From: Chthoniobacterales bacterium
GTDB lineage: Bacteria > Verrucomicrobiota > Verrucomicrobiia > Chthoniobacterales > UBA10450
Reading direction: 5' to 3'
DNA length: 33,013 nt
Assembly: GCA_013821455.1 (NCBI GenBank)
Contig: JACDGS010000045.1
Coordinates: 1 to 33,013 of the forward strand
Shown here: one piece after another, positions 5,480 through 22,419 of the stretch
Numbering within the stretch: position 1 is the stretch's first letter
Layout: each line of letters starts with the position of its first letter
The notes under the pieces: generated by a model
Told to the model about the DNA's origin: nothing
Database searches by the model: none
The model's input: only the letters and a program-made list of their open reading frames with translations
Position numbers and translations under genes: made by a program

Positions 5480-6073
5480 TTACTTACCACCCGCGCCCTG
5501 ATCTCCTCCGCACGCGAGGTTTTCCATCTCCGTTACTACGCGATCCAACTCGTCAATTAACTCACTTTCTCCGTGAGCGCGAAAAGCAGTCACCAGTGCG
5601 CGGTAATACCAGAGACAACCTTCCTTGCCTGCTTTAAAGCGGGACCAAACTTCGTCGCCTACTTCGCGGAAGTTATGCACGATGGCCCGGCAGTTATGCA
5701 GCTTATCCGACGCGGAAACGAGGCGGGTCGAGGCTGAGGCGGCGCTTAGGTGTGCGATGTAGCTCTCTTTACGCTCGCGCCAGGGAGGCTTGGGGGTCTG
5801 GTCGCTGTCGGTGCAACCCTCAACGATGTCGGCCACTTCTTTGCCGAAGCGCTTGCGAATATCGCGCTGGCGTTCCGGCCCGCCGCCATCCTCGACCGCA
5901 TCGTGCAGGAGCGCGCCGATGGCTTCCTCTTCACTCGCGCCGTACTCCATGGCAATAGCCGCTACGCCCAGGAGATGACCAATGTAAGGGACATGCGTTT
6001 TCTTACGCAGTTGTGCGCCGTGGACGCGAGTAGCGTAGATAAGTGCTTCTTCGAATTTGGGTGTGAGTTTCAC
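5480..6073 (-). CDS. Stand-alone HD-domain phosphohydrolase, small alarmone hydrolase-like
   Basis: The 197-residue protein is a single HD domain like the hydrolase half of RelA/SpoT and the MESH1/SAH enzymes, which remove the 3'-pyrophosphate of (p)ppGpp using Mn2+. Visible signatures are RKKTHVPYIGHLLGVA (His33), the HD pair in ALLHDAVEDGG (His57-Asp58, Glu61-Asp62) and SASDKLHN (Asp123, Asn127). No synthetase, TGS or ACT domain is attached, and the length fits a single-domain hydrolase. A broader HD role (another nucleotide) is possible. The gene stands alone, followed by a 223-bp gap with no recognised feature. Confidence 0.8.
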   Translation of the reverse strand: MKLTPKFEEALIYATRVHGAQLRKKTHVPYIGHLLGVAAIAMEYGASEEEAIGALLHDAVEDGGGPERQRDIRKRFGKEVADIVEGCTDSDQTPKPPWRERKESYIAHLSAASASTRLVSASDKLHNCRAIVHNFREVGDEVWSRFKAGKEGCLWYYRALVTAFRAHGESELIDELDRVVTEMENLACGGDQGAGGK

Positions 6074-6595
6074 GATAAGACTCGAGCGATAGGTGAGTCT
6101 TTATCACTCTGTCTGAAATCTTCAAATGGTTGGTGTCAGCCGGCGCTTGGTTACCGCTCGCGTGATAAGCGCACGACTGCCCGATGAAGAAAGTAGTTAG
6201 TGGAGAGCTACGCGCTCACGGCGTGAGGCATGACTGCGATCTCTGTCATTGCCTATCCCCTCGGTCCCCTCGTTCCCAAACTCCAGTTTGGGAACGAGCT
6301 TGTTCTGGAAACTCCGTTTCGGTGCTTGGACGCTCGGTGTTGGTCTCATCACGTCGTGGCACTATCACGGATAAGTAAGCGGTGAGAGTTAAGAACGGGT
6401 TGTCGAAACGGAGTTTCGAGAGCAGGTGCGTTCCCAAAGGGACTTTGGGAACGAGTGTCTTGGGGAACGAGTGTCGAGTGCCGAGTGTCGAGTAGGACGA
6501 GGGAGCACTTAGCTACTCAGCACGCGGCGATCGCGTCACGAGCAATAAGAAGAAATGTTATTGATGAAGCCGCTAAGAACTAGCTTCAACGCAAC
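6074..6595. other. 522-bp intergenic region containing REP-like hairpins
   Basis: No convincing coding sequence on either strand. The central 185 bp hold the hairpin cluster listed separately. After it come short direct repeats of GAGTGTCGAGT/GAGTGCCGAGT around 6468-6492. The rest shows nothing I can assign. Confidence 0.7.
6269..6453. repeat. Cluster of four REP-like palindromic units
   Basis: Unit 1 pairs CTCGTTCCCAAACT (6269-6282) with AGTTTGGGAACGAG (6285-6298) around a CC loop. Unit 2 is GAAAC-TCC-GTTTC (6308-6320). Unit 3 is TCGAAAC-GGA-GTTTCGA (6403-6419). Unit 4 pairs CGTTCCCAAAG (6429-6439) with CTTTGGGAACG (6443-6453) around GGA. Units 1 and 4 share the arm CGTTCCCAAA, and units 2 and 3 share GAAAC/GTTTC, with the same TCC/GGA-type loops. 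The order A-B-B-A suggests a composite mobile repeat (BIME-like). GTTCCCAA...TTGGGAAC palindromes of this type are widespread in several phyla and are thought to be mobilised by REP-associated tyrosine transposases; none is in this window. Confidence 0.8.
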
Positions 6596-6907
6596 TCACG
6601 GCCAGGGATGACGGAGAGCGCTATTGTGAGACTCGATCGCGGCCTTATTGAAGCAATCTAAAGCTACGAGAAACCCATCGGTAAGTTCGCCGGAAATGAG
6701 ATGTTCTTCGATTAAGTGCGCGGCGATGGCGATTTCGCGCCTAACATCCAGATCGGCGTCAGCGTCCTCCTGCGCATCGAAAGTTTCCAGGCAGGCCGCG
6801 GCTATTTCATAAAGGCCTTCGAGAAGCTGGCGTTGTACCGTCTCGGGGTATTCCTGTTGGTGATCGACCAACAGTTGGATGATGGCGTTGGCGTTAGTTA
6901 TTTCCAT
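6596..6907 (-). CDS. Small helical hypothetical protein
   Basis: A ~103-residue, acidic, mostly alpha-helical protein (ANAIIQLLVDHQQEYPETVQ, REIAIAAHLIEEHLISGELT). The ATG at 6907 is chosen: it overlaps the end of the upstream gene by 14 bp, suggesting translational coupling, and the longer frame would add Arg-rich residues that look like read-through. No signal peptide or membrane segment. Family not recognised. Confidence 0.6.
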   Translation of the reverse strand: MEITNANAIIQLLVDHQQEYPETVQRQLLEGLYEIAAACLETFDAQEDADADLDVRREIAIAAHLIEEHLISGELTDGFLVALDCFNKAAIESHNSALRHPWP

Positions 6908-7136
6908 TGCGAGATGCCGGCGCGGTCTGGCGTGGTCGATAGTGGCGGTGGGTGTGCGGAGTTTGAATTTCAGTGGCAAACTCCTTTAAGAGCTTCGCGA
7001 GACCGGGAAGCGCGCCGCCCTTGATCCGGTTCGCATAGGCGAAGTAGAGGACCTTCCCTAGATCGGCGGTGGTGTAGCGAGCATGCACCTTCGCTAACTC
7101 GGTCCCGAGGCGTCGTACCTCGTTAGGCTCGATCAT
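6894..7136 (-). CDS. Small basic hypothetical protein
   Basis: An 80-residue protein with an amphipathic helical core (VRRLGTELAKVHARYTTADL, GKVLYFAYANRIKG) and a polar tail. It is first in a two-gene unit with the overlapping helical protein downstream. A TCGTTAGG octamer lies near its 5' end (7120-7127). Function unknown. Confidence 0.55.
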   Translation of the reverse strand: MIEPNEVRRLGTELAKVHARYTTADLGKVLYFAYANRIKGGALPGLAKLLKEFATEIQTPHTHRHYRPRQTAPASRNGNN

Positions 7137-7246: not shown

Positions 7247-8530
7247 CTAGTCGATCGACATGTCGGAGAGCTGGCCGGCGAAGGCGTGACCGGGCGTCGT
7301 TTCGACGACCTTGATGAATTTGCGCATGGCATCGAGCACGGGCACCTCGCTCCGGTCGAAAACTTCGCCTTGCAGGAGACGCAATATTTCCACCCGGTGT
7401 TCTTTAGACTTAATGAAGTGGGTAAAGAGCGGCAGAAGTTTGTAGTAAAGCCGAATGAATTCGTACCAGATCGCAGTGCCGGAGCGCAGCTTCTTCTCGT
7501 AGGGTTTCAGGTTCGCTTCGCTGAAATCGCCCGTGGCAAAGGCATGCACGATCCGCTCGGAGGAGTATTTGGCGCTAAAGAGGGCGACGCTGACTCCGGA
7601 AGAGAAGATCGGGTCCACGAAACGCGCGGCGTCGCCGATCATGACGAAACCGTTGCCGGCGAAGGTATCCATCTGATAGCTATAATCGCCTTCCATTTTG
7701 AATTCGTTCACGCGTTTGGCGTTGCGCATGGCGTGCGCGAGGTCCGGGTTCGAAGCCACATACTTTTCGAAGTATTCTTCGGGTTTCATCTTGGCCCCTT
7801 TGAAGACCTCTTTTTCAGCGACGATACCCATCGAAGTGATCTCGTGAGTGATGGGAATTTGCCAGGCCCAACCGCGCTGCACCGGCAGGAAGTAAATGTG
7901 AATATATTCCGATGACTCAACCTGACTCTTATCGACATTCTCAAACCAGGCGTGCACCGCGAATTGATCGAAGATGGGATCGTTCTTTTTCACCTTGAGT
8001 TGTTTGCCCAGGACCGTCGCGCGCCCGCTGGCGTCAACCACCATCTTCGCGGGAACATCCATCTCCTGACCGGCGATCTTTACGCGCACACCGCGGGTGT
8101 ATTTGTTCTCATCGAAAAGGATTTCGGTGACCTGCATCCCTTGATAAACCTTTGTGCCGAGACTCTCCGCGTGCTTCAGCAGGAGCAGGTCGAATTTCTT
8201 ACGATCGACGTGATAGGTGTAGTCCTGATGGATGTCCGCCTGCGGAAACTCATTGAAAGCAATATCGGCCTCGCCCTTTTCGATCGGTGGATGCCAGGAG
8301 GCGCCATACTTCCGCACGAATCCTTCGCGCTCCATGACTGGCAGGAAATCCAGCTCATCAAAAACACGGACCGATGACATGACCATCGATTCGCCCACAT
8401 GGTCGCGCGGATGATTGGCGGATTCGAAGATGGTGTTCTTGATTCCGGCCTTCGAGAGGTAGCAACCGAGGGCGGATCCAGCAGGGCCGCCTCCGATGAT
8501 GACAACATTATCGCTTTCGTTTTTGTTCAT
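7247..8530 (-). CDS. Flavin-dependent halogenase-like FAD oxidoreductase 1
   Basis: A 427-residue flavoprotein of the tryptophan/phenolic halogenase superfamily, which uses FADH2, O2 and halide to make HOX; related members only reduce or hydroxylate. The FAD-binding GGGPAGS is at residues 13-19, HVGES at 44-48 and the second FAD contact GDAARF at 299-304. The halogenase motif WxWxIP is present as WAWQIP (221-226), and FxxPxxSxG as FVDPIFSSG (304-312). Lys74 in GFVRKYGASW is at the place of the catalytic lysine of this family. The pattern is closest to the carrier-bound or free-phenol type (CmlS/PltM-like) and not to tryptophan halogenases such as PrnA. It is divergent from the next paralogue across 333 bp. 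Substrate unknown. Confidence 0.85.
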   Translation of the reverse strand: MNKNESDNVVIIGGGPAGSALGCYLSKAGIKNTIFESANHPRDHVGESMVMSSVRVFDELDFLPVMEREGFVRKYGASWHPPIEKGEADIAFNEFPQADIHQDYTYHVDRKKFDLLLLKHAESLGTKVYQGMQVTEILFDENKYTRGVRVKIAGQEMDVPAKMVVDASGRATVLGKQLKVKKNDPIFDQFAVHAWFENVDKSQVESSEYIHIYFLPVQRGWAWQIPITHEITSMGIVAEKEVFKGAKMKPEEYFEKYVASNPDLAHAMRNAKRVNEFKMEGDYSYQMDTFAGNGFVMIGDAARFVDPIFSSGVSVALFSAKYSSERIVHAFATGDFSEANLKPYEKKLRSGTAIWYEFIRLYYKLLPLFTHFIKSKEHRVEILRLLQGEVFDRSEVPVLDAMRKFIKVVETTPGHAFAGQLSDMSID

Positions 8531-8863
8531 AAGTTCGTCCTGAGAATGCCAGGGCCACGGAAAGAGCGAGCCTCGTGGCGCTAGCTCCGCCTGGAGGTTC
8601 TATTGGTTTCGCCGATCATGGTATTAGCATTCCTTAGACCTTGGCAACAGATTTTTGGTTACAATTAAAGAGATCGTCGGAAGGCCCTCGCAGGAATGTG
8701 AGCGCTCGCTCAGGTCAGGTATCCCTGCTGAGGCGCTTTGAGACACGCGGAATATTTCACTCTTGTTAAAAATGAAGCGTAGCCCGCACCCAAACAGGCC
8801 GCGCTGCATCCATTTTACTTTACCGAGCGCAGCTTCTGTTGTTAGATCAGATTCTTTAGAATT
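8531..8863. promoter_or_regulatory. Divergent intergenic region between halogenase-like genes 1 and 2
   Basis: 333 bp separate two divergently transcribed start codons, so promoters for both must lie here. The half nearest the plus-strand gene is A+T-richer (around 8745-8790 and 8835-8865). I could not identify convincing -35/-10 boxes or an operator, and I see no coding sequence. Confidence 0.4.
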
Positions 8864-10237
8864 ATGAGAGCAGAAGTATTGATTGTTGGAGGCGGTCCGG
8901 GCGGCTCGGCGGCGGCTATGTTCCTCCTGAAAGAGAGAATCCAGCCGGTCATTCTCGAGCAGGAAGAGTTTCCGCGTTTCCATATCGGTGAATCAATGAC
9001 CGGCGAAGCGGGCGCACTGCTGCGCAGGCTCGGGCTGGAAGACGCGATGACCGCCCGGAACTATCCGGTAAAGCACGGCGTGCGGGTCTTCGGCGAAGGC
9101 GGCAAGAATTCCTGGTTCATCCCTGTCTCTGCGCGCAACGAGCGCTGGGAGCTGGAGTCGGGCACCACCTGGCAGGTCCGCCGCAGCGACTTCGATGGCA
9201 TGATGCTCGATGAAGCGGCGAAACGTGGCGCGACTCTCATCCGCGGCACTGCCGTAAAGGCGTTGCTCGGCGAAGACGGCGGCGTGCGCGGGGTGACGAT
9301 GCGCCACCCTGACGGGTGTCTCGAAGACATCGAATCGACTATGCTCCTCGATTGCACTGGCATGGCCACCTTTCTGGGAAACCAAAAAGTGACCGGCCCG
9401 AAATATCTCGGCAGTTACGATAAACAGATCGCATTCTTCGCGCATGTGAAAGGGGCAGTCCGCGACTCGGGTGATGCCGGAGAGATGGCACGCGATAACA
9501 CGGTCATCTTCTATGAGAAGAAGTATCACTGGTCGTGGTTCATCCCGGTTGATAAGGAGATCACAAGCATCGGGTTGGTGGTGCCGCGAGCCAAGTTCAT
9601 CGAATCGAAGCAAACTCCGCAGGAATTTTTTCTCGATTATCTGCCGCAGATTAATCCCGACCTCGAGCGCCGCATCGCGGGCTTCGAGCTCGTCGATAAG
9701 GTCCACGTGATCCCGAATTATTCCTATCAGGTCCGGCGCTTTTGCGGGAAAGGCTTTATCTGTATCGGCGACGCGCACCGTTTCATCGATCCCATCTTTT
9801 CCTTCGGGCTTTCAGCGACCATGCGCGAGGCCGAATTCGCCATTCCCCATATCCTCTCCTATCTCAAAGGCGAGCGGCGCGCAGAGGAGAATCCCTTTGC
9901 CGGGCACATGCTCTTTTGCGAGCAGGGAATCGATAACCTCGAAGACATGGTCGATCTTTTCTGGGAGCAGCCCTTCGCCTTCGCGACCTTTGTGCATCAG
10001 CGCTATCGCAGCGAATTAATCGATGCCTTCGCCGGCCGGGTCTATGCCACCGAATATCAACCCTCGACCGCCATCCTCGCTTTTCGCAAAATGCTCAAAC
10101 GGGAACGCGGCTACGAACATGAAGATGATTATTCCATTCCGATCGGTTCGCGCTATCACCCCGAGCGCGCGGCTTTGTGGGCGCCGGACTCACCGGTGGA
10201 AACCACAGAAGAATGGTTGAACTCCAATCTGGCCTGA
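8864..10237 (+). CDS. Flavin-dependent halogenase-like FAD oxidoreductase 2
   Basis: A 457-residue paralogue of the flanking flavoproteins. It has GGGPGGS (residues 9-15) for FAD, HIGES (40-44), an exact WxWxIP as WSWFIP (223-228), GDAHRF (302-307) and FxxPxxSxG as FIDPIFSFG (307-315). Lys70 in YPVKHGVRVF is the candidate catalytic lysine. The C-terminal ~140 residues (after IPHILSYLKG) are helical and Trp/Phe-rich (DLFWEQPFAFATFVHQRY), a likely substrate-binding lid. The start ATG has the FAD motif within ten residues, as usual. It shares conserved segments with its neighbours but is far from identical to them, so this is an old duplication. Confidence 0.85.
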   Translation: MRAEVLIVGGGPGGSAAAMFLLKERIQPVILEQEEFPRFHIGESMTGEAGALLRRLGLEDAMTARNYPVKHGVRVFGEGGKNSWFIPVSARNERWELESGTTWQVRRSDFDGMMLDEAAKRGATLIRGTAVKALLGEDGGVRGVTMRHPDGCLEDIESTMLLDCTGMATFLGNQKVTGPKYLGSYDKQIAFFAHVKGAVRDSGDAGEMARDNTVIFYEKKYHWSWFIPVDKEITSIGLVVPRAKFIESKQTPQEFFLDYLPQINPDLERRIAGFELVDKVHVIPNYSYQVRRFCGKGFICIGDAHRFIDPIFSFGLSATMREAEFAIPHILSYLKGERRAEENPFAGHMLFCEQGIDNLEDMVDLFWEQPFAFATFVHQRYRSELIDAFAGRVYATEYQPSTAILAFRKMLKRERGYEHEDDYSIPIGSRYHPERAALWAPDSPVETTEEWLNSNLA

Positions 10238-10245
10238 CCTAACCT

Positions 10246-10395
10246 ATGCGACGCAGCAAACGTGACGGCGGCATAGCCCGTGGCTCCCTAACCCTGTGTA
10301 ACCTCCTGGAAGTTCTCGCGGTCACTGGCTGCGGGAAGATTGCGAGTAAGACAATTGCTTCCATGGCCACGGCATCCGCGGTCGTTGGGGAATAA
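10246..10395 (+). CDS. Candidate 49-residue small peptide between halogenase-like genes
   Basis: An ATG frame of 49 codons begins 9 bp after the preceding stop. It has a basic N-terminus (MRRSKRDGG), a hydrophobic Cys-containing middle (LTLCNLLEVLAVTGCGK) and a Ser/Thr/Ala-rich end (ASKTIASMATASAVVGE). It might be a modified peptide, a toxin-like or membrane peptide, or chance. There is no recognisable ribosome binding site and no peptide-modifying enzyme other than the flavoproteins. Weak call. Confidence 0.2.
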   Translation: MRRSKRDGGIARGSLTLCNLLEVLAVTGCGKIASKTIASMATASAVVGE

Positions 10396-10489
10396 GTCCT
10401 GCTTCATTCACATAACTCGAAATCGCCCACGGCTTTCAATCCATTTTCAAAGTTGGAAACCACAACTCGACTGAACTCAAACTAAACTT

Positions 10490-11902
10490 ATGACTAACTC
10501 TAATGCGCACGACGTAATCGTTATCGGAGGAGGGCCCGCCGGCTCTACGGCCGCAACCTGGCTCGCCCGTGAGGGACACGATGTTCTCTTAATGGAACGC
10601 GAGAAGTTTCCGCGCGAGCACGTCGGCGAATCACTCCTGCCCTTCTGCTACAAGCTCCTCGAGGATCTTGGTGTGGTCGAAGAGCTGAAGAAGAACTTCG
10701 TTCGCAAGCCAGGTGTCCGCTTCATCGATCGGGACGGGAACATTTCTACCACCTGGTGTTTCGATCATGTGATTAAGAATGATACTTATCTCTCCTTCCA
10801 GGTTATCCGCGGTGAGTTCGATCACATCCTGCTCAAGAACGCCGCGAAAAACGGTGTGGATGTGCGCGAAGAGACATCGGTGGTCGAGGCTGATATTACG
10901 ACCGCGCCTGATCGTGTGTCGGTCACCGCGCTCGATGCTTCGGGCGAGAAGACAACTCATACGGCGAAATTCCTGATCGACGCCAGCGGACGGGAAGCTT
11001 TCATCGGCGCTAAGTCCGGCTGGCGTAAGCCGCGCGAAGAGTTGGACCGGACCGCTATCTGGTCGCACTGGGGCAATGTGAAGTTAGCGGGCGGTCTTGA
11101 GGAAGGCCTCTCCATTATCATCTATATGGGTTTGGAGCAGAAGGGCTGGATCTGGGTTTTCCCGTTGGGTGAGAATCGCATCACCGCCGGTTTCGTAGCC
11201 CAGAACTCCTATATTAAGGAGCAACAAAAGAAGCTGCGCGAAGGCGGTTCCAAGGATTGGAAGCAGGACCTTTGCATGCAGGAACTTTTGCATTCGAAGT
11301 ATGTCGCCGGTTTGCTGGAAGGAGCGGACATGCTTATCCCAATGCAAATCAACGGTAACTACTCTTACGAAGTGAAGAACCATTATGGTTCTAACTATGC
11401 CATGGTGGGTGACGCGCGCGGTTTCATCGATCCGATCTTCTCCAGTGGCGTTTTCCTCTCAATCAAAACGGCCTCGCTGGTTTCCGCCGCCCTTCATAAG
11501 CAGCTCACTGGACAAGTGAACGGTAAGAATGAAGCCATGGAACAAGCTTACGCCCAAGTCACGGGCGCTTATAACTTCGTGCATCGCATGATTAAGCTCT
11601 TCTACAATCCGCATAGTGTCACCTGGGCCCAGGCCGGCGCGGATGGACAGGCGCATAAGAACCACGAGAGCGCGATGGCCGCGGGTCATTACATGCTTTC
11701 GGGCGATTTCTTTGAGAACTACAAGAAGTATGAAGGTTTCTTCGAAGTCCTGGAAGATCCGGAGCAGTTCCGTCGCTATAAGAAACTAGTCATCGATCGC
11801 GACGAATTTGTGCAACCTACTTGCAGCAGCCGCTGGGAAGAAGTCTTCCAAGACATGGTCGCGCGTGACGCAGAACGCACAGCGGAGCTCGCTCCGGTCT
11901 AA
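10490..11902 (+). CDS. Flavin-dependent halogenase-like FAD oxidoreductase 3
   Basis: The third paralogue, 470 residues. FAD motif GGGPAGS is at 13-19, HVGES at 44-48, GDARGF at 308-313 and FxxPxxSxG as FIDPIFSSG at 312-320. The WxWxIP motif is slightly changed to WIWVFP (220-225). Lys73 in FVRKPGVRF is the candidate catalytic lysine. The C-terminal region carries a helical lid (SAMAAGHYMLSGDFFENYKK) that differs from paralogue 2. Many halogenases tolerate the I-to-F change, but it could mark a change to hydroxylase or reductase activity. The gene follows paralogue 2 after 252 bp and precedes the antiporter by 82 bp. Confidence 0.85.
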   Translation: MTNSNAHDVIVIGGGPAGSTAATWLAREGHDVLLMEREKFPREHVGESLLPFCYKLLEDLGVVEELKKNFVRKPGVRFIDRDGNISTTWCFDHVIKNDTYLSFQVIRGEFDHILLKNAAKNGVDVREETSVVEADITTAPDRVSVTALDASGEKTTHTAKFLIDASGREAFIGAKSGWRKPREELDRTAIWSHWGNVKLAGGLEEGLSIIIYMGLEQKGWIWVFPLGENRITAGFVAQNSYIKEQQKKLREGGSKDWKQDLCMQELLHSKYVAGLLEGADMLIPMQINGNYSYEVKNHYGSNYAMVGDARGFIDPIFSSGVFLSIKTASLVSAALHKQLTGQVNGKNEAMEQAYAQVTGAYNFVHRMIKLFYNPHSVTWAQAGADGQAHKNHESAMAAGHYMLSGDFFENYKKYEGFFEVLEDPEQFRRYKKLVIDRDEFVQPTCSSRWEEVFQDMVARDAERTAELAPV

Positions 11903-20007: not shown

Positions 20008-22419
20008 TTAGGGAAGATCGTAGGCTTCGACGAGGGCCACACCGTTGCCGTTGTTCGCGCCCCTAACGATCGCGGTGTAGTTGCCGGGATCGAGTGTCGC
20101 AACGATGGCCGCTTCGCGGTCGTCGTTAGGCGGAAGGCCGGTCGCAATAATCGCGGCTTCCTGGCTATCGCGCCAATCGTCGTTCGCTTCGAGTAGCGCA
20201 CCGTCCGCATCGCGCAATTCCAGCGTCGGATCGAGCAGAGGATTGGCTATGTTTTGCGCGGCGAGTGACGGCCCGGTCGCCCGCAGGAGGATCTGGCGTG
20301 GTTCCGTCCCGCCCACGATGAAGCCGCCAATCAAAACATCATCGCCTGTTTGCACGAGGCCTCGCGTCGAAATGTTCACCGCGTTCGCCGCGGCGCTAAG
20401 CGCGTAAAGTTCGACCAAACCGATGCCTGTGCCACCCTGCGCGCCGCTCAGGATCACGGTGTAATTTCCCGGCGCGAGATGCGCAACCAAGGCAGACTCC
20501 AAGTCATTGTTAGGCGCGAGGTTCAAGTCCATGATCTCATTCTTGTCGGGGCTGTTCATCCAATTGTCGTTAGTCGCCAGGAGCGCGCCCGATGCATCAT
20601 GCAATTCGATCTTGGGATCGGCCAGCCTGCCCGCGAGCGGCGTGCCGTTCACCGCGAGCGAAGGTCCGAGGCCGCGCAGCACCACTTCTTCGTCTTCGCT
20701 GCCGACGACAATGAAACCGCCGATGAGGACGTTGTCACCGACGCCGACTCGTCCGCGGGTCGAGAGATTCAGCAGCGCAGGTGCAGGCGTAATCGAGACG
20801 AGCTTATCCACCTCGCCTCCGCCAGTCCCGCCGGTGAGAACATAGACGTCACCGTTATCGTCCATGCCGAAAGCGCGGATGAGTTTGCCTAACGGCGCCG
20901 CTCCGTCTCCGATGCCAATTTCTCGGATAACTCCGCTTAAAATGTCGCTCTCGAAGAGACGGCCCGTGCCGTTATCATCGACGAAGTCTCCGAAGACATA
21001 GCGGCCGCTCAGCGCCGGCACCGCCGGACCGTGCGCGACATAGCCACCGATGATCGCGTTGCCATCGGCGTGACTGTACTCGAGCACCGGATCGGTCAGG
21101 CTCGGATCGGGGGAAGGATCGACGCTGACCGTCCCATTGCTCGGGTTGAACAGGAATGTGCCTTCCTTGCGATTCCAGCCGTAATTTTTTCCGGATGCGA
21201 CGATGTCCACTTCTTCGACGTTGTTCTGCCCGACATCGCCGGCGATCAAACGATCCGTCGGCGCGTCAAAGGAAAAGCGAAACGGATTGCGAAAACCGTA
21301 GGCATAAATTTCGTGCACCGCGGTGCTGCTGTTGATGAACGGATTCGACGCCGGGACGCGATATTTTCCATTCGCGCTCACGGGATCGGCGCTGCCTTGC
21401 GAGAGCGCGGGCGCGATCGGGCGGATGCGCAGGATTTTCCCGAGGACAACGGTGAGGTCCTGGCCGTTGCCGAGGCCGGGAGTGTGGCCGGCACCGACGT
21501 CGTTGCCGTTGCCGCCATCGCCTAACGAGATGTAGAGATAATTTTCGCCCGGCCGAAACGCGAGTTTCCCGCCGTTGTGATTGGCTTCGGGTTCATCGAT
21601 GCGCAGCACTTCGCGACGCGACGCCGGATCAGCGAGGTCGGGATTGGTGGCGGATTGTTTCCATTCCGCGACCACGCTTTGATGGTTAGGCGGCAAAGAA
21701 TCCACCACTGAAAAATCCGCCGCGCCCATGACCGGTTCGCTCGTGTAAGTGTAAAATTTCCGGAAGCCGGGGCTGGCCGGATCGTTGTAGTCCGGATGAA
21801 AGGCGACCCCGAGTAAACCGACTTCGCCGCTGGTTCCAACGAGGCGCGAGGAAACGTCGAGAAACGCGTTCGCGAGCACTGCGCCGTTTTTGATCACGCG
21901 AATCGTGCCCGTCTGCTCCACCACAAAAAGGCGCCCGTCGCCGATCGTGGCGAAGTCGAGCGGAGCGCTCAGCCCAGTCGCGATCGGATCGAGCGCGACA
22001 CGAATCGGTCCTTTGGCGATGAGCGGCAGAATCGGGGTCGCCGTTGGGATCGGCGTCGGTGTAGGCGTCGAAGCTACCGCGACGACGTGGACCGTGGCGG
22101 TCATCATGCAGCAATTGCCGTGGACGGAGCAGAAATAGGGGAAGTCGCCCGCAGCCGGAAATTCCTGGGTAAATTTGGAGCCGCTGTTTAAGACGCCGGA
22201 ATCCCATGTGCCCGAGGGATTGTTCGGCGTGCCGGCGGTGGTGCTGTGAAAGCTGGCATGCCAATCCCACTCGATCTTGTCGCCGGGTCCGATCGTGATG
22301 GCGGAAGGCGTGAAGGTGTCGCCATTCAAACCGACGTGAACGGTGAAGGTTTTCGCCGGCGCATTTGCCGCCGCGAGAAGGAGCGAAAGAGTGACAAGGA
22401 AACGTGGCAACGACTTCAT
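20008..22419 (-). CDS. Cupredoxin-glucose/sorbosone dehydrogenase fusion with two C-terminal repeats
   Basis: A signal peptide (KSLPRFLVTLSLLLAAANA) leads into a cupredoxin domain (residues ~24-112). Its candidate copper ligands are in DWHASFHST and FCSVHGNCCMM: His54 or His58, Cys97, His100 and Met105/106. A TPTPTPIPTATP linker follows. Next is a PQQ-type glucose/sorbosone dehydrogenase (HHIP-like) propeller, residues ~138-545, with EVGLLGVAFHPDY, NHNGGKLAFRPGENYLYISL, VVLGKILRIRPI, YGFRNPFRFSFD and IAGDVGQNNVEEVDIV. The last ~250 residues are two related units of ~120, each running LSTRG...VLIGGFIVxG...PSLA...NDxW...PGNYTxIxxGxxxG. The protein is exported; it would oxidise a sugar or alcohol and pass electrons to copper. 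Its stop lies in a TCGTTAGG octamer. Confidence 0.85.
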   Translation of the reverse strand: MKSLPRFLVTLSLLLAAANAPAKTFTVHVGLNGDTFTPSAITIGPGDKIEWDWHASFHSTTAGTPNNPSGTWDSGVLNSGSKFTQEFPAAGDFPYFCSVHGNCCMMTATVHVVAVASTPTPTPIPTATPILPLIAKGPIRVALDPIATGLSAPLDFATIGDGRLFVVEQTGTIRVIKNGAVLANAFLDVSSRLVGTSGEVGLLGVAFHPDYNDPASPGFRKFYTYTSEPVMGAADFSVVDSLPPNHQSVVAEWKQSATNPDLADPASRREVLRIDEPEANHNGGKLAFRPGENYLYISLGDGGNGNDVGAGHTPGLGNGQDLTVVLGKILRIRPIAPALSQGSADPVSANGKYRVPASNPFINSSTAVHEIYAYGFRNPFRFSFDAPTDRLIAGDVGQNNVEEVDIVASGKNYGWNRKEGTFLFNPSNGTVSVDPSPDPSLTDPVLEYSHADGNAIIGGYVAHGPAVPALSGRYVFGDFVDDNGTGRLFESDILSGVIREIGIGDGAAPLGKLIRAFGMDDNGDVYVLTGGTGGGEVDKLVSITPAPALLNLSTRGRVGVGDNVLIGGFIVVGSEDEEVVLRGLGPSLAVNGTPLAGRLADPKIELHDASGALLATNDNWMNSPDKNEIMDLNLAPNNDLESALVAHLAPGNYTVILSGAQGGTGIGLVELYALSAAANAVNISTRGLVQTGDDVLIGGFIVGGTEPRQILLRATGPSLAAQNIANPLLDPTLELRDADGALLEANDDWRDSQEAAIIATGLPPNDDREAAIVATLDPGNYTAIVRGANNGNGVALVEAYDLP

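Follow-up and report, generated by a model that had tools for sequence, protein, structure and literature searches.

An inverted array of four hairpins in the genome of a Chthoniobacterales bacterium is probably a non-autonomous mobile element resembling a REPIN or BIME, moved in trans by a RAYT (REP-associated Y1 HUH transposase) of the kind encoded at G000:C81:22091-22633. The array is located in the window, i.e. the whole stretch of 33,013 nucleotides that was analysed, which belongs to contig C79 of a genome of 4.30 Mb in 117 contigs (G000). With slightly better than even confidence in the statement as a whole, we further suggest that a RAYT clade spanning more than ten phyla possesses double-hairpin ends with the same kind of apex, and that these apices are read by helix positions 79-80 in a reprogrammable code that has been switched repeatedly: Arg-His/Tyr would correspond to TGN loops, Ser to a G.C apical pair and Lys to A.T or T.A. 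If true, the cognate repeat of a RAYT is predictable from its protein sequence and can be reprogrammed.

The array and its dispersed copies

Sequence inspection and the listing of inverted repeats resolve the array (6269-6455) into two units of opposite orientation, A-B and B'-A' (Table 1). Each unit consists of an outer hairpin of GTTCCC type and a smaller inner hairpin, with matching apices. The A-B-B-A order described in the first-pass annotation is borne out by the stems of A1, B1, B2 and A2 as well as by one long inverted repeat that joins the two halves (6287-6321 against 6404-6438, 35 nt, 86% complementary). That all hairpins share the same three-base loop holds for B1, B2 and A2 with their TCC, but A1 has TCCA; the loops of the right half read GGA because the right unit has the opposite orientation. 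The limits given at first, 6269-6453, cover the hairpins, and the element runs a few bases further, to about 6266-6455, judging by other copies.

Table 1. Components of the hairpin array and adjoining sequence (positions in the window).
Feature	Position	Strand	Remarks
Whole element A-B ... B'-A', ~190 bp	6266..6455	.	limits judged by the CCCTC / GAGG borders seen in further copies and by the breakpoints of two G004 copies
Outer hairpin A1	6269..6298	+	CTCGTTCCCAAAC-TCCA-GTTTGGGAACGAG, 13-bp stem, loop TCCA
Unpaired linker A1-B1	6299..6307	+	CTTGTTCTG; the family's most frequent form resembles GCACTTGTCCC
Inner hairpin B1	6308..6320	+	GAAAC-TCC-GTTTC, apex resembling that of A1
Spacer between the two units	6321..6402	.	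no interior match in the all-against-all comparison of element copies
Inner hairpin B2	6403..6419	-	TCGAAAC-GGA-GTTTCGA (minus strand: TCGAAAC-TCC-GTTTCGA)
Linker B2-A2	6420..6428	-	
Outer hairpin A2	6429..6453	-	CGTTCCCAAAG-GGA-CTTTGGGAACG, 11-bp stem; minus-strand apex AAAG-TCC-CTTT
Possible remnant of a further A arm, just outside the element	6460..6471	.	TTGGGGAACGAG, 92% complementary to 6269-6280

As a single strand, 6262-6462 forms one long hairpin with a folding energy of -52.3 kcal/mol, whereas 200 shuffles average -27.2 (sd 3.1; z = -8.2, 0/200 shuffles as low). A match to the Rfam family MIR839 scores 34 bits where the gathering score is 200, and was discarded as a chance match to the long palindrome. 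The array lies between a minus-strand HD-domain gene (5480-6073, PF13328) and a minus-strand ORF (6596-6979), for which no Pfam family was found. A simple-sequence tail (CGAGTGTCGAGTGCCGAGTGTCGAGT, 6468-6493) adjoins the element and has 7 matches in G037, a genome without hairpin matches. Further along the window, at 7247-11902, three adjacent ORFs (one minus, two plus) have tryptophan-halogenase / FAD-binding matches (PF04820, PF01494).

According to the first-pass annotation, uniqueness of the array in its genome would speak against a mobile repeat. A 321-base query yields 35 BLAST matches over 10 contigs of the own genome, self-matches included, and the further copies that the annotation proposed to look for are present, with 21 A hairpins. 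The pattern GTTCCC-N(8-12)-GGGAAC occurs at 23 places of the own genome (the two of the window included), 21 of them of the A type, against 1 for the backward pattern; the array is more than chance. One 30-kb contig, C81 (L071, L072), contains seven A hairpins and also the cognate RAYT. Of the 39 genomes first compared, the own one among them, 6 have matches, those in G037 being restricted to the simple-sequence tail. The order was sampled with 213 genomes (own included); the A pattern is present in 32 and a RAYT of this type in 14, and the pattern occurs in 13 of the 14 genomes with such a RAYT vs 19 of the 199 without (Fisher 2e-11, relatedness ignored).

In the unit, compared over 111 entries of which some are reversed or spurious, the base of A is conserved, the linker is close to GCACTTGTCCC and hairpin B mostly measures 5-7 bp. 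The listed units have no conserved GTAG/GTGG at either foot, and their outer flank is of the CCTC type. Strictly defined REPs carry a GT[AG]G tetranucleotide at the hairpin foot, which these units lack, and we therefore call them REPIN-like; they share with REPINs the arrangement as two inverted REP units, with copies dispersed as a doublet. The all-against-all comparison lists 32 A-B...B-A spans, some of them overlapping or long. Many AAAC-apex doublets are found in G026 (L096-L113); their two sides often differ, one having a GGGAATGCC end and the other a GGGAACGCACTTG end.

In the congener G004, contig C40 carries two copies (near 160163-160361 and 161153-161352) that are identical at 190/200 positions (95%), tip to tip, with borders near CCCCTC and GAGGGG, and the 100-bp flanks of which align no better than shuffled sequence. 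The complete A-B...B-A has thus been duplicated as a unit, and this pair is the single case in which such movement is seen. No empty site was found for the window copy. The likeness to a mobile bipartite repeat (BIME), suggested in the first-pass annotation, thus stands as regards the dispersed inverted doublets and the unit duplication in G004, but not as regards the classical GTAG-tagged kind, the units being double hairpins.

RAYT genes between the same ends

Two RAYT genes of the own genome lie between A hairpins in A-B ... B-A ends, C81:22091-22633 (A hairpins at 22037 and 22675) and C87:12701-13234 (12636 and 13262). They provide the REP-associated Y1 transposase that had been proposed as a check on the array. 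Both match the NCBIfam RAYT model NF047646 REP_Tyr_transpos above its cut-off of 80 bits (C81:22160-22621, 93 bits; C87:12725-13174, 97 bits), and the C81 protein has no Pfam family at 1e-3. The presence of the Pfam family Y1_Tnp was rejected as a test for RAYTs, since it is found in 36/39 genomes (own included). H60-x-H62, Y138, N142 and P143 are invariant in sets of 19 and 37 proteins, so that the HUH and Tyr/Y---NP motifs are both present. IS200/IS605 transposases would be expected in multiple near-identical copies with a YxxxQ motif; here the motif is Y---NP, and the two RAYTs of this type in the genome are 67% identical to each other. The C81 gene is uninterrupted and encodes Lys79-Phe80, the C87 enzyme has Arg79-His80 and TGC loops in its own ends. 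Given the AAAC/AAAG apices and TCC loop of the window array, the C81 enzyme rather than the C87 enzyme is predicted from sequence to be its mover.

Framing by the repeat extends beyond this genome. At 17 of the 24 RAYT places in 14 genomes of the order, both sides carry an inward-pointing A hairpin (<=3 mismatches) no more than 60 nt away, 36-48 nt upstream of the start and 26-56 nt downstream of the matched gene, i.e. the gene is framed by inverted copies of a dispersed palindromic repeat, as expected of RAYTs. Four of the seven unframed places are broken or partial genes (G055_C60, G026_C10_52165, G144_C41, G003_C30), the other three are not (G026_C10_149699, G055_C54, G055_C12). Other RAYT-like genes of the own genome, on C65, C13, C56, C115, C92, C93, C101, C108 and C91, have no A-type hairpin within 600 bp, and those on C13, C56 and C92 possess hairpins of other sequence. 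G004 and G010 contain AAAC-apex elements, yet no such RAYT turns up in them at E<=1e-10. G026 likewise has such elements but no intact Lys79 RAYT was found in it; at E<=1e-10 it contains one intact Ser79 relative and one Arg-His fragment. In these three genomes the movers have therefore been lost or missed. Another RAYT of G026 (L115, G026:C3:106228-106596) is framed by GTAG-tagged hairpins (GGTAGGGACATGCGG...), so that two RAYT systems coexist in this genome.

Element and RAYT gene share one type of end, a double hairpin in which A, with its GTTCCC base, and B point the same way and have matching apices. We propose that the DNA of the element would fold as a single strand and that the RAYT would bind the folded strand, taking hold of both hairpins of an end, perhaps with one subunit each, which would explain why the apices match. 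The apices would be read with helix residues 79-80. The enzyme would cut beyond the A hairpins, where the CCTC/GAGG borders lie, and would move the intervening single strand, with strand transfer as in IS200/IS605.

Hairpin apices and residues 79-80 across phyla

A scan of 84,980 species, with one genome per species, retrieved 229 relatives of the RAYT alignment; the best 80 of the 229 and three loci from the window's own set make up the 83 loci examined. Double hairpins are found at both ends in 47/83, at one end in 22/83 and at neither in 14/83, a few detections being spurious. Loci with at least one double-hairpin end, among the best 80 of 229 relatives, come by record title from more than ten phyla: Verrucomicrobia, Hydrogenedentota, Planctomycetes including Brocadia, Nitrospira, Deltaproteobacteria, KSB1, Ignavibacteria, Calditrichaceae, Neomarinimicrobiota, Bacteroidetes, Cyanobacteria and Gammaproteobacteria. 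A phylum sample of 357 genomes contains this RAYT at E<=1e-25 in the own genome only. One RAYT relative is present in the viral collection and four in the plasmid collection.

Under a stricter distance and arm filter 66 loci pass and 17/83 are left out. The A and B hairpins of a locus agree in the penultimate apical base in 58/66 loci (G/G 45, A/A 12, T/T 1) and in the second loop base in 55/66 (C/C 39, G/G 15, T/T 1), with poorer agreement in the closing base (53/66). The closing base pair was dropped as part of the code, A having T while B has C in 12/66 loci. Independent-pair tests of apex matching between A and B comprise only 3 or 4 pairs on starred (well supported) branches, too few to count. 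On the RAYT tree the apex class changes 16 times vs a shuffled mean of 38.3 (0/200 as low), and so follows the tree.

The rule was fixed in writing before the new loci were collected. Arg79 with His or Tyr80 goes with the loop TGN, any other combination with TCN; for the penultimate base, Ser79 goes with G and Lys79 with A or T. Loci with a loop base other than C or G were left out. In the training set from which it was made, the loop rule fits 63/63; among the loop-C loci of this set Ser79 occurs with G in 29/31 (the exceptions L214 and L223 have a penultimate A or T), Lys79 with A or T in 10/10, and two Arg79-Phe80 loci have A. The hold-outs comprise other RAYTs of the training genomes at 20 places (further places in these genomes, mostly fragments, were not included) and RAYTs from two phyla also represented in training. 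Five of the 41 hold-out loci (L271, L286, L293, L297, L311), at least 90% identical to training proteins, were dropped. The unchanged detector scores 15 of the remaining 36, and the loop rule fits 15/15 (4 G, 11 C), a perfect split with a chance of 1 in 1365. The scored hold-outs include no Lys79; a penultimate G is found in all 8 with Ser79 but also in 2 with Gln and 1 with Ala, and is not special to Ser79.

Judged by eye, the 21 unscored hold-outs comprise 12 that fit, 2 that contradict, 4 with T at the loop position (L281-L283, L304) and 3 that are unreadable (L277, L294, L296); T is also found in L161 and L167. The rule is broken by L280 (Arg-Tyr but TCCG), which is 36% identical to the nearest training protein, and by L284 (Lys-Phe but TGT/TGC), with 45%. 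L313, the only one of the five viral and plasmid relatives that is readable with some trust, fits the loop rule; the plasmid locus L314 (Ser-His, TGT hairpin) would break it, provided that its REP is this hairpin. Hold-out L276, when read a second time, shows loops ATA/GTA, which differ from the scored reading. A rule-blind reader without the B requirement finds pairs in 21/36, in mixed orientations, and was left out of the score. The loop rule should be taken as one of the double-hairpin clade, not of all RAYTs. The distant relatives L275, L276 and L278 have a distinct hairpin base (TTCGACAGT or similar), two of them with Gln79 and TCT loops and one with Arg79 and a TGG loop. In other distant RAYTs (L285, L309, L280) the apices read GGTC-TCC and may represent another apex class, with Lys or Arg at position 79.

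Residues 79-80 lie within a single helix (residues 70-92) that follows the HUH strand in the predicted model of L156, a 68%-identical relative (pLDDT 93). The best match of this model is 4er8, TnpAREP bound to REP (Z 15.0, rmsd 3.0, 138 aligned). According to the available text of PMC8266576, residue K82 in helix alpha-3 of the E. coli enzyme contacts the REP base C27, and Corneloup et al. 2021 'can only speculate' on contacts to the loop of a perfect palindrome, pointing to helix alpha-3. On the predicted model, residues 79-80 are likely located in the same helix as this REP-contacting one. A correspondence between residue 79 and E. coli K82 was withdrawn as support: the HMMER alignment alone pairs them, ending there, MAFFT in three modes pairs K78 with K81 and opens a gap before K82, and hhalign aligns this stretch differently.

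It is highly improbable that the hairpins serve the host as ordinary signals (bidirectional terminators, mRNA-stabilising hairpins or nucleoid sites) and lie near a transposase gene by chance. The window copy does occupy a usual place of REPs, between two minus-strand ORFs (5480-6073, 6596-6979), and its hairpins could act secondarily as terminators; host signals would not account for the same double ends on both sides of the RAYT gene, for a pair of copies with sharp borders in unrelated flanks or for a patchy distribution over 32/213 genomes of one order, and 5900-7000 contains no Rfam family above its gathering score. We give hardly more credit to a MITE of another transposase, whether a classical DDE enzyme or an IS200/IS605 TnpA, with the RAYT genes caught between its ends. 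Inverted-repeat halves around a variable middle look MITE-like, and the repeat also occurs in genomes that lack such a RAYT; against a MITE, the order A-B-RAYT-B-A recurs at similar distances in RAYT relatives of many phyla, and the apex class follows both the RAYT tree and residues 79-80. A mobile element of the RAYT is the reading we retain. The window copy itself may be a relic no longer able to move, a serious possibility towards which we do not quite incline: the inner border of A1 reads GAG where the family usually has GC, and the apex of A2 is AAAG instead of AAAC, but the stems, loops and B hairpins are intact and the genome has an uninterrupted RAYT with fitting residues.

The association of residues 79-80 with the apex may also reflect shared ancestry instead of recognition, RAYTs and flanking REPs being physically linked and co-inherited. 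This is somewhat unlikely. The independent pairs on well supported branches number only five, all concordant (p 0.0625, too few for 0.05). In the joint tree, however, each trait changes 9 times, with no discordant row among the 78 scored. A scan of 180 alignment positions for the second loop base ranks residue 79 first and residue 80 second, with balanced accuracies of 0.98 and 0.92 against 0.80 for the best column outside the two. Furthermore, six genomes (G000, G074, G143, G144, G569, G591) contain the two enzyme types side by side, and each type keeps to its own loops, although the Arg-His gene of G144 is broken.

Under recognition by residues 79-80, the genome data name two helix positions and their partner bases, so that loop recognition would be reducible to a two-residue swap. 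The code would also let each dispersed array be assigned to its mover, lost movers included. RAYTs themselves are single-strand transposases that have been domesticated, and bacterial genomes commonly contain their repeats.

Relation to known systems

REPINs or BIMEs, as Bertels and Rainey are said to have described them in 2011, are paired REPs in opposite orientation. The present element resembles them in its two inverted REP-like units, its dispersal, the lack of a gene of its own and the folding of the doublet as one hairpin, but each of its units consists of two tandem hairpins with matching apices and without a GTAG tag.

In a REPtron, a RAYT gene is framed by cognate inverted repeat copies (Nunvar 2010, PMC2817692; Di Nocera 2013, PMC3733652), and the available text of this literature states that RAYT and REP trees agree in Stenotrophomonas. 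REPtrons and the co-inheritance of RAYT and REP are already known from the same portions of text (PMC2817692, PMC3733652), and REPINs are likewise known. The RAYT genes reported here are likewise framed by inverted copies of a genome-wide repeat; they differ in their non-GTAG double-hairpin ends and in the proposed residue-level correspondence.

TIRtrons with 'double palindromic TIRs' possess a RAYT-like gene between long inverted repeats holding two palindromes, and some of these TIRs form repeat families in dimers, according to the accessible part of PMC3733652. The present genes share this arrangement of a RAYT-like gene between two-palindrome inverted repeats, a likeness at the level of description; the same part of PMC3733652 makes no mention of matching apices. 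The TnpA-Y1 subclass 2.6, equivalent to Bertels group 5, has WQ and Y[IL]H[NH]NP-like motifs in about 179 aa and 'atypical secondary structures' in place of GT[AG]G REPs, mostly in Bacteroidetes (available text of Quentin 2018, PMC6006769). Our motifs agree by eye with Table 1 in that text, a likeness by description and not by the subclass profile or by the insertion between helix C and strand 4 that also marks the subclass. Neither in it nor in the available text of PMC3733652 was an analysis of the apices of 'atypical secondary structures' or 'double palindromic TIRs' found. In the literature searched, with most subscription papers and all supplements and figures outside the search, neither matching apices nor a residue code were found described, and the matches listed for the hairpin 10-mers, which represent part of that literature, look unrelated by title.

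TnpAREP of E. coli (4er8) shares with the present RAYTs the fold, the HUH and Tyr motifs and, under the proposed code, the placing of specificity residues in the helix that follows the HUH strand. The E. coli REP requires GTAG and a bulged stem (available text of PMC8266576); in contrast, the repeats reported here have perfect stems and no GTAG, and their RAYTs possess a longer stretch between this helix and the WQ motif.
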